Shown: positions 15,472 through 17,397 of the stretch, one piece after another
How the letters are laid out: every line of letters starts with the position of its first letter
Numbering within the stretch: position 1 is the stretch's first letter
DNA from: an uncultured Pelagibacteraceae bacterium
Lineage (GTDB): Bacteria; Pseudomonadota; Alphaproteobacteria; Pelagibacterales; Pelagibacteraceae
Direction of reading: 5' to 3'
Length of the DNA stretch: 44,580 bases
Assembly: GCA_902586395.1 (NCBI GenBank)
Contig: CACIHL010000002.1
Coordinates: forward strand, 1-44,580
Program-made: the position numbers and the translations under genes
Notes under the pieces: model-generated
The model's database searches: none
The model's input: only the letters and a program-made list of their open reading frames with translations
What the model was told of the DNA's origin: nothing

Positions 15472-15546
15472 GGTCCCTTCGTCTATCGGTTAGGACACAT
15501 GGTTTTCATCCATGAAAGAGGGGTTCGATTCCCCTAGGGACCGCCA
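15472..15546 (+). tRNA. tRNA-Glu (anticodon TTC), CCA encoded; attachment site
   Basis: GGTCCCT and AGGGACC form the acceptor stem, the anticodon loop TTTTCAT gives TTC, and the T arm is AGGGGTTCGATTCCCCT. Length is 75 nt including CCA. The 37 bases from 15511 to 15547, covering the 3' anticodon stem to just past CCA, are repeated at 17075-17111 with three mismatches. This is the pattern left when an integrative element recombines into the 3' half of a tRNA gene. Confidence 0.96.
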
Positions 15547-15601
15547 CTAGTTGTTAGATACAGCAACACTTATTTAAATAAATCAGCCCAAAAATTCTTT
15601 A

Positions 15602-15622
15602 TGGGCACACTCTGGGCACACT
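15602..15622 (+). repeat. Paired TGGGCACAC boxes, left copy
   Basis: Two TGGGCACAC boxes (15602-15610 and 15613-15621) are spaced 11 bp start to start. The same pair occurs at 16995-17014 with one base different in the spacer. Repeats of this sort close to tRNA attachment sites are typical of tyrosine-recombinase binding sites. Here they also overlap the likely -35 region of the protease gene. Confidence 0.8.
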
Positions 15623-15630
15623 GATATAAT
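15602..15630 (+). promoter_or_regulatory. Putative promoter of the protease gene, embedded in the repeat
   Basis: A perfect TATAAT (15625-15630) lies 17 bp downstream of TGGGCA (15602-15607; four of six bases of the -35 consensus). Transcription would start around 15637, the A of the ATG, and there is no Shine-Dalgarno sequence, so the message may be leaderless. The overlap with the TGGGCACAC pair means a protein bound to the repeats would compete with RNA polymerase. Confidence 0.5.
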
Positions 15631-15636
15631 AAAATT

Positions 15637-16983
15637 ATGAAAAAAATATTATTGTCATTGTTTTTTATCTTATCAATGTGCGGAAGTGTTTTTGCAAACT
15701 CTGCCATATATAACGCTATTAATAATGGAGTAATTTACGAGGGTATGAATTATCGGGATTTTGAAATAGTTGTAAGTGGTAAAATTGGAATGGGTGCCAA
15801 AGATGTGAGTGGTTATTATGATCTGTTTGTTACATCTCCTGATGGTGAAAAATTTGGAGATTATAAAGTTGTTTCATTTTACAATGGAATAGCTTTAGTC
15901 ACATTGCATGCCCCAAATGCCAAATGGGTTGCCTGGGGTTTTGGGTCTAAAACAGCTTACGTAACAAAAATTGTAGCTTATAAAAATGGAAATAAACCTG
16001 ATGTTGGAAAAAATTGGATAGAGACAAAAAAACATCTTAAAGAAAAACTTGGAAATATTACTTGGTTAAGACCTAATAAATGGAACACTAACCGGGGAAA
16101 ACTTTTAGTTCTTGATAATGCAGAAAAAGACAGAGAAAAACTATTAATTGCTGAAGAAAAAAAAAGAAAAGAGGAAGAGGAAAGAAAACGTATTGCTGAA
16201 AAAGAGAGAAAAGAAAAAGAAGCTGCAGAGGCAAAAAAACCAAAACCTAAAGTTTCTTCAGAAATAGATAGCTCACTAATTACGATAGGTAGTGGAAGTG
16301 GGTTTTATATAAATAATCAAGGTTATGCTTTAACTAACAATCATGTAATTGAAATCTGTAAACAAACAGTCGCTGTAATTAATGGAGAGGAAACTTTGTT
16401 TAAAGTAATTGCTACAGACATAACAAATGATGTAGCTGTTTTAAAAACAAATTTCAGATCAAGAAGTTTTATAAAAATAAATGATGAAGGAGCCAAACTT
16501 GGAGAAAATGTTATAGCAGTCGGCTATCCACTTGCAGGAAGATTGAGCGATAGTGTTAAAATAACTAGAGGTATAGTTAGTTCGTTAAGCGGTATAAATA
16601 ATAATATTAGTCAGATACAAATTGATGCTGCACTTCAACCAGGTAATAGTGGTGGTCCTGTTTTAAACGAAAATGGTGAAATGATAGGAATTGCTTCAGC
16701 AGGTTTAAATAAATTATTAATGGCAAAAGAAGCTGGTTATGTTCCAGAAAATGTAAATTTTGCTGTAGCCTCACCAACAGTAAGTAACATTTTAAAAAGC
16801 AAAAAAATAAAATTTACAAAGCAAGGTTTTTTCAGTCCGTCTTATTCTAACACTGAACTTGCAGAGTTAGGAAATGATTCAACAATGCAATTATTTTGTA
16901 GAAATACTAAAGTTGCTTATAATAAGTTAAAAAGTAGTAATGAGTATTCCACTGTTCTTTTGGATAAATTAGAAACAGACTAA
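15637..16983 (+). CDS. Secreted trypsin-like (S1C/HtrA-type) serine protease with novel N-terminal region
   Basis: A signal peptide (1-20, ending SVFANS) is followed by about 130 residues I do not recognise (YEGMNYRDFEIVVSGKIG ... WVAWGFG), then a charged coiled coil (about 163-205, EEKKRKEEEERKRIAEKERK), then a chymotrypsin-fold protease domain. The triad is visible: H236 in TNNHVIE, D265 in ITNDVAVLK, S338 in QPGNSGGPV. There is no PDZ domain after the protease, unlike DegP/DegQ. It is the only gene between the tRNA-Glu attachment site and its partial copy, so it looks like mobile cargo. Substrate and role are unknown; a periplasmic or surface location is inferred. Confidence 0.85.
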   Translation: MKKILLSLFFILSMCGSVFANSAIYNAINNGVIYEGMNYRDFEIVVSGKIGMGAKDVSGYYDLFVTSPDGEKFGDYKVVSFYNGIALVTLHAPNAKWVAWGFGSKTAYVTKIVAYKNGNKPDVGKNWIETKKHLKEKLGNITWLRPNKWNTNRGKLLVLDNAEKDREKLLIAEEKKRKEEEERKRIAEKERKEKEAAEAKKPKPKVSSEIDSSLITIGSGSGFYINNQGYALTNNHVIEICKQTVAVINGEETLFKVIATDITNDVAVLKTNFRSRSFIKINDEGAKLGENVIAVGYPLAGRLSDSVKITRGIVSSLSGINNNISQIQIDAALQPGNSGGPVLNENGEMIGIASAGLNKLLMAKEAGYVPENVNFAVASPTVSNILKSKKIKFTKQGFFSPSYSNTELAELGNDSTMQLFCRNTKVAYNKLKSSNEYSTVLLDKLETD

Positions 16984-16994
16984 TAAAAAAATAC

Positions 16995-17015
16995 TGGGCA
17001 CACTATGGGCACACT
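16995..17015 (+). repeat. Paired TGGGCACAC boxes, right copy
   Basis: TGGGCACAC at 16995-17003 and 17006-17014, 12 bp past the protease stop. Over 21 bases it differs from the left copy at one position. The pair is in direct orientation relative to the left copy, so the protease gene is bracketed by direct repeats inside the larger tRNA duplication. Confidence 0.8.
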
Positions 17016-17074
17016 TGATTCTAATTTTTTGATTTTGAAGTTAAAAAAAGCTATAAAATATAATGTTAATGATT

Positions 17075-17111
17075 CATGAAAGGGGCGTTCGATTCCCCTA
17101 GAGACCGCCAC
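17075..17111 (+). repeat. Partial tRNA-Glu copy (att-site remnant)
   Basis: This 37-bp stretch matches 15511-15547 at 34 positions without gaps, including TTCGATTCCCCTAG and ACCGCCAC. It lacks the tRNA 5' half, so it cannot make a tRNA. Two of the three mismatches fall in the T-stem/variable region and one in the acceptor strand, indicating drift since integration or a donor tRNA allele. It is the far attachment site of the 1,564-bp unit starting at tRNA-Glu. Confidence 0.88.
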
Positions 17112-17112
17112 A

Positions 17113-17397
17113 ATGAAATATTTTGTTTATTTATTAGTTTCAAAGAAAAATAGTAAGATTTTTTCCTATGTTGGAATGACTAAAGATCTAAATAAAAGGA
17201 TTACTCTTCATAACTCTTCTAAAGGAGCTAAATATACCAAGGGAAAAAAATGGCTTTTAGCTTATAAAAAATCTTACAATTCTAAATCAAAAGCCTTAAA
17301 AGAGGAATATAGTCTCAAAAAAGACAAAAAAAAAAGGGAGAAAATTAAATTAAACTTTAATTTAAAAAATGAGAATTTCAATTCTTTTACCATATAA
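17113..17397 (+). CDS. GIY-YIG-domain protein (UPF0213/YhbQ-like)
   Basis: The 94 residues show FVYLL and YVGMTKDLNKRITLHN (GIY-YIG strands plus the catalytic arginine helix), GAKYTKGKKW and EEYSLKKDKKKREK with the conserved glutamate. This is the compact single-domain GIY-YIG group, presumed nucleases of unknown role. Its ATG falls two bases beyond the tRNA-Glu remnant, so its original upstream region was replaced at the junction. No Shine-Dalgarno is visible. It overlaps the next gene by 29 bases. Confidence 0.8.
   Translation: MKYFVYLLVSKKNSKIFSYVGMTKDLNKRITLHNSSKGAKYTKGKKWLLAYKKSYNSKSKALKEEYSLKKDKKKREKIKLNFNLKNENFNSFTI

Follow-up and report, generated by a model that had tools for sequence, protein, structure and literature searches.

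A single-gene cassette without an integrase at a SAR11 tRNA-Glu gene, probably mobilised in trans, and similarly built elements at other tRNA genes

An intact tRNA-Glu gene in the window (the whole 44,580-nucleotide stretch analysed, from a SAR11 genome of 594 kb that is about 60% complete) is followed by one protease gene and then by a second copy of the tRNA's own 3' part (Table 1). The two copies match without gaps at 34 of 37 positions, lie within a longer alignment of 49 nt at 84% identity and are 1,564 bp apart from left end to left end. With the second copy removed, the next-best match to the core in the window was 19/37 on the forward strand and 21/37 on the reverse strand, so the repeat cannot be put down to chance. 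No recombinase was found between the copies by ORF and domain analysis, the protease gene being the sole open reading frame of more than 56 aa. The original prediction, which had described a 37-bp tRNA-Glu repeat enclosing a secreted protease gene and no recombinase, was thus confirmed; as the genome is about 60% complete, an integrase encoded in another part of it may have escaped notice. The protease has an N-terminal hydrophobic leader, a Trypsin_2 domain and intact HtrA-type His/Asp/Ser motifs, and no PDZ match was detected in it.

Table 1. Features of the element at tRNA-Glu and of its surroundings (positions in the window).
Feature	Positions	Strand	Basis or remark
tRNA-Glu (TTC), intact; probable integration target	15472-15546	+	ARAGORN
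Whole element, attL core to attR core	15511-17111		Probable cassette
attL core, the stretch of the tRNA-Glu 3' part that recurs at the right end	15511-15547	+	34/37 repeat
Left leader, non-coding, core to arms	15548-15601	+	81-82% identity in two diverged relatives, flanks 64-66%
Left arm pair, TGGGCACACT-C-TGGGCACACT (11-bp period)	15602-15622	+	Probable integrase arm sites
Promoter-like TGGGCA-17-TATAAT over the arm pair	15602-15630	+	Consensus 10/12; function inferred
Cargo, trypsin-like (HtrA-type) protease, 448 aa	15637-16983	+	Pfam PF13365, NCBIfam, motif positions
Right arm pair, TGGGCACACT-A-TGGGCACACT	16995-17015	+	Sequence repeat; compared with other elements
Right leader, non-coding	17016-17074	+	90-97% identity in two diverged relatives
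attR core	17075-17111	+	34/37 to tRNA, three mismatches
GIY-YIG gene, host flank outside the element	17113-17397	+	Directly follows tRNA-Glu at empty sites of relatives
Xer-like recombinase, 323 aa	23165-24136	-	Weak XerD match; inside a glycosyltransferase cluster

Just inside both ends lie tandem 10-bp repeats (the arm pairs of Table 1), which the original prediction had overlooked. The window has no further pairs of this kind, and the four copies of GGGCACAC that it contains, against 0.16 expected, all fall within these two. The left pair is overlapped by the promoter-like site, and the ATG of the cargo gene follows 6 nt on.

We then compared the tRNA-Glu locus across relatives. At 13 of 14 other loci inspected, only a few to about 20 nt separated the tRNA from a GIY-YIG gene, the same gene that lies 3' of the window's right repeat; these are empty sites. 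A second copy of the core was present in 2 of the 104 relatives having the tRNA-Glu core, and the relaxed arm pair occurred in 3 of 399 congeneric genomes, twice in each and always within a tRNA-Glu element. Scanning 85,462 species genomes for the core together with the left arm pair gave six loci, all from Pelagibacteraceae single cells. Including the window, this made seven Glu elements of 677 to 1,964 bp, all at the same tRNA, and each of their genomes held exactly two arm pairs, both belonging to its element. No integrase or recombinase fragment was detected in the seven. Their cargo comprised three dissimilar trypsin-like proteases (the window genome, AG-892-J03 and AG-422-F10), a T5orf172 protein (AG-900-P18), a leader-bearing protein of 147 aa (SCGC AAA795-F16) and two sets of small genes (AG-894-A03 and AG-426-E17). 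Both outcomes that the original prediction had expected of a mobile element, empty sites in some relatives and, in others, repeats of this kind enclosing different cargo, were therefore met with, and the case that would have refuted it, protease and remnant in place in all relatives, was not.

The Glu elements shared a fixed architecture. The part of the repeat common to the other elements was the last ~28 bp of tRNA-Glu. Right arms started 91 to 92 and 80 to 81 nt 5' of the right-core TTCGATT in all seven, while the starts of the left arms, counted from the left core, were at 57 and 68 nt in three elements and at 46 and 57 nt in the other four, a difference of exactly 11 bp between the two groups. 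In five of the seven, the arm pair was followed at near-constant spacing by a TATAAT-like hexamer and then an ATG. In the 677-bp element of SCGC AAA795-F16 the repeat is identical to the tRNA throughout the core, unlike the window copy, whose three attR mismatches to the tRNA mark it as probably an old insertion; for the same reason, it may no longer be mobile.

Next, we considered how alike the elements were relative to their hosts. Among the window genome (G000) and two diverged relatives (G401 and G402), the host flanks shared 64 to 73% DNA identity and the non-coding element ends 81 to 97%, with unrelated cargo between them. Four close hosts (flanks 90 to 96% identical) had ends that were less alike, and their cargo varied between cells. 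Without horizontal movement, it is difficult to account for ends that resemble each other more than the hosts do while their contents have been swapped.

Nor is the unit unique: several tRNA genes carry elements of the same family. With the core DegP set aside, homologues of the cargo protease were frequently neighbours of tRNA or tmRNA genes, and in several cases the tRNA 3' end recurred beyond the homologue; the tRNAs concerned were tRNA-Thr and two tRNA-Met genes. The tRNA-Thr and tRNA-Met elements also carried arm pairs in 11-bp register. The tRNA-Thr core was present in 79 of 101 genomes, 33 of which had two or more copies (maximum, five), and the 47 intervals between successive copies made up our Thr set, in which a few low-scoring intervals are perhaps not elements. 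Matched arm pairs at period 11 scored at least 23 in 32 of the 47 intervals, compared with 0 to 1 at the other periods from 8 to 15, and a score of 22 was reached in 38 of 47 intervals versus 2 of 235 shuffles. The distance from the right arm to the core was 99 to 104 bp in 37 intervals and 118 to 122 bp in five longer elements. Arm sequences differed between elements (TGTTGTC, GTGTGAC, GTGTTAG and others) and matched within each; read in the direction of the Glu arms, many had a related form, for example, TGGTCACACT-N-TGGGCACAGT. Matches to TGGTCACACT in G144, G052 and G091, which could pass for noise, lie close to tRNA-Thr, and the one in G144 is a Thr element. In another Pelagibacterales family (L307 to L314), the tRNA-Thr 3' end recurred at spacings of about 400 to 1,000 bp; as these copies had no matched 11-bp arms, they were left out of the element count. 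Two to four elements stood in tandem at one tRNA-Thr in L234, L262, L315 and L317, each with arm sequences of its own.

The start of the cargo was likewise fixed at tRNA-Thr: of the 37 intervals that were shorter than 3 kb and gave such a start, 24 had the first ATG of an ORF, reading away from the arm, at a distance of 115 to 117 nt from the right core. The promoter-like position was retained in most Thr elements as well as in five of seven Glu elements. It is this conservation of position that argues for promoter function, which remains an inference: the consensus match is weak alone, and promoter-like sites in the region of the window element were not more numerous than expected by chance. 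Thr cargo included type IV pilin-like proteins (15 of 83), three Trypsin_2 proteases, three Mrr-type nucleases, one type IIG restriction enzyme and the candidate anti-phage families PDC-S11 and PDC-S57. Pilin-like cargo was seen in L262, L278, L281 and L285, with seven successive pilin-type ORFs in one 4-kb element.

Only one of the 47 Thr intervals (L253, 7.7 kb) contained an integrase recognisable by homology or motif, a search that very divergent recombinases could escape. This stretch (L253 1-15001, from G039) carries an integrase with an arm domain and a DUF5906 protein at tRNA-Thr; it is possibly a satellite and may represent the type of helper used by longer elements that lack an integrase, L279 and L263 among them. 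Phage-type integrases (345 to 556 aa) were present in about a dozen of 151 genomes.

Tandem pairs next to a core, as seen here, resemble the arm-type sites of a phage-type tyrosine integrase. When the relaxed motif was located in viral contigs, a tyrosine recombinase was found in 22 of 59 stretches, most at no more than about 520 bp, and in none of 30 controls. In one GC-rich phage contig (L091), a tRNA-like core is flanked by a pair on either side, and an integrase is encoded 1.7 kb away. Matched 11-bp pairs were also present at both ends of the integrase-bearing SAR11 elements L253, L247 and L254, and the integrases of L253 and L247 have the arm DNA-binding domain. Because the motif flanks tyrosine integrases in phage contigs, the pairs in the window look like integrase arm sites, and the element meets the attP-type layout of a core from a tRNA 3' end with arm pairs on both sides. 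That an integrase binds these pairs is an inference from sequence. Pairs of the TGGGCAC type with 11-bp spacing adjoined tyrosine integrases in phage contigs of widely varied G+C content (L130 to L187).

A helper integrase combining TGGGCAC arms with a tRNA-Glu core was not found in the 85,462 species genomes, the viral contigs or the phage records. In the viral contigs, queries by tRNA core, by arms and by patterns joining the two yielded only integrases from other taxa that have the same arms, and no pelagiphage with a tRNA-Glu core; the single match of one such query was GC-rich and looks like chance. The phage records, queried with the reconstructed attP, gave nothing relevant. The pelagiphages HTVC025P, HTVC011P and HTVC041P were set aside, as their integrase regions hold a whole tRNA-Leu and repeats of the TGTTGCA type, not TGGGCAC.

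From these results, we consider it likely that the element is a non-autonomous, site-specifically integrated cassette mobilised in trans by the integrase of a phage or satellite, and that it is made up of tRNA-Glu-derived cores, arm sites for a phage-type tyrosine integrase at either end and a single accessory gene directly behind a promoter-like site that overlaps the arms. An integrase of the same arm specificity, supplied by a co-resident temperate phage or satellite, would bind the arms, and recombination between attL and attR would release a circle of about 1.56 kb that, after transfer, would insert into the tRNA-Glu gene of another chromosome. As the element carries the tRNA 3' end, the tRNA would be restored on insertion. 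Helper capsids, vesicles or uptake might bring about transfer between cells, by a route that is unknown. Since one arm pair overlaps the putative promoter, binding of the integrase could also affect expression of the cargo, although this is speculation. The claim that duplication of a tRNA 3' end marks integration of a mobile element was supported by the empty sites, alternative cargo and arm pairs. Mobilisation in trans, also part of the original prediction, gained indirect support from the matched arm sites at both ends, the integrase-bearing elements of like build and the conservation of the ends beyond that of the host flanks; direct support was lacking, as we observed no circular junction or excision event and did not find the Glu helper.

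The main competing account is that each element was left by deletion from a larger, integrase-bearing element and is now immobile. Known elements of a comparable kind, the cis-mobilizable elements (CIMEs), are described as arising by such decay (PMC7563491), integrase-bearing elements of the same layout exist, and the window attR has drifted by three mismatches. Decay would not, however, be expected to leave all seven small Glu elements with both arm pairs in register, whole genes starting at a fixed point and ends more similar than the host flanks, nor was any recombinase fragment detected in them. We regard this account as unlikely; it concerns present mobility only, as an origin by deletion is compatible with present mobility in trans. 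It would be much more surprising if the elements were exchanged by homologous recombination between tRNA repeats, as in an additive island, with the tandem repeats serving as regulatory operators and not as integrase sites. The tRNA repeats would suffice for homologous exchange, and one repeat pair does overlap the promoter-like site, but pairs occur at both ends and the promoter-like site at only one, the pairs keep an 11-bp register to the core, the motif stands beside integrases in phages, and integrase-bearing elements have the same layout.

Slightly less credible still is movement of the element by the Xer-like recombinase encoded 6 kb downstream, even though no other tyrosine recombinase was found in the window genome and the gene is close to tRNA-Glu in most relatives. 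It is present, as a single copy mostly near tRNA-Glu, in about 100 of 151 congeneric genomes irrespective of whether they have an element; no arm-binding domain was matched, and its core-binding domain begins near residue 24, which leaves no room for one. The protein is probably SAR11_0551, the "probable phage integrase" in HVR2 of HTCC1062. Chance similarity or an old fixed duplication can be practically dismissed: no evidence for either was found, and they are contradicted by the second-best match of 21/37, the rarity of a second core copy among relatives and, decisively, the empty sites and alternative cargo.

If the element is a cassette mobilised in trans, its closest counterparts by working principle are, by analogy, the CIMEs and the tRNA cassettes of Ca. 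Actinomarinales. CIMEs, known for example from Streptococcus, consist of att sites and cargo without recombination genes, measure 1.2 to 13 kb in their classical form and in some cases lie at a tRNA gene; by definition they derive from ICEs or IMEs by decay, and they are moved in cis after tandem accretion (PMC7563491). The window element agrees with them in its direct-repeat att flanks and in having no recombination, conjugation or mobilisation genes (a single protease ORF, with no recombinase in any of the seven Glu elements). It differs in its standardised ends, which carry arm pairs and a promoter-like site, and in how seldom integrase-bearing partners occur; no conjugative (ICE or IME) relative came up, although none was searched for directly. 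The Actinomarinales cassettes target tRNA genes in additive flexible islands; they belong to a different phylum, and arm sites, a fixed cargo start and absence of an integrase are not described in the passages of PMC7771536 consulted.

The original prediction had likened the unit, in concept, to tRNA-targeting cargo elements of marine cyanobacteria. Tycheposons of Prochlorococcus, as described in PMC10872708, are 4 to 200 kb long and marked by a tyrosine recombinase. The SAR11 elements are likewise tRNA-associated cargo elements of streamlined marine bacteria and share the tRNA border (here tRNA-Glu), whereas none of the seven Glu elements has a tyrosine recombinase and all, at 677 to 1,964 bp, fall below that size range. 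Phage satellites such as PICI, PLE and PICMI (listed in PMC11389934) are similarly small, chromosomal and helper-dependent, and the 7.7-kb L253, with its integrase and DUF5906 protein, may be satellite-like; the Glu elements, in contrast, have no integrase, replication gene or recognised packaging function. With integron cassettes and CALINs (PMC11389934) they share mostly single genes, standard ends, tandem arrays and an integrase from elsewhere, but their cores are tRNA 3' ends with arm pairs, with no attC-type site apparent, and each cassette has its own promoter-like site. In the open literature (subscription papers lay outside the search), we found no earlier account of such elements from SAR11, in line with the original prediction, which knew of none in this form.

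SAR11 are the most abundant bacteria of the ocean and have small genomes with few integrases, which raises the question of how they acquire and exchange accessory genes. Extra tRNA-Thr attachment copies in 33 of 79 genomes contrast with phage-type integrases in only about a dozen of 151. The recurrence of one design at several tRNA genes, with near-identical ends around unrelated genes, suggests an unrecognised gene-swapping system driven by the enzymes of other elements. If mobilisation in trans is real, most integrative traffic in SAR11 would consist of elements that escape ordinary island finders, which rely on the presence of an integrase, and the fixed arm-promoter-cargo layout provides a search key. 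The cargo (restriction enzymes, candidate anti-phage genes, pilins and secreted proteases) points to interactions with phages and surfaces; any benefit to the host is inferred.

A broader hypothesis, which we put forward tentatively and would not yet favour, is a cassette economy across the genus, in which single genes travel in standardised, integrase-less tRNA cassettes whose arms double as the cargo promoter. Arms diversified between cassettes and matched within them would each be tuned to one of many helper integrases from phages and satellites, and a bound helper would not only mobilise the cassette but also silence its cargo, in many cases anti-phage or surface genes, or set the timing of its expression. 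Such a system would be integron-like without an integrase of its own. Otherwise unrelated cargo proteins in L103 (286-729), L102 (1697-1930), L271, L262 and others have a near-identical N-terminal leader, MKKLLGIVVLGLL, as if signal peptides had been exchanged between cassettes.
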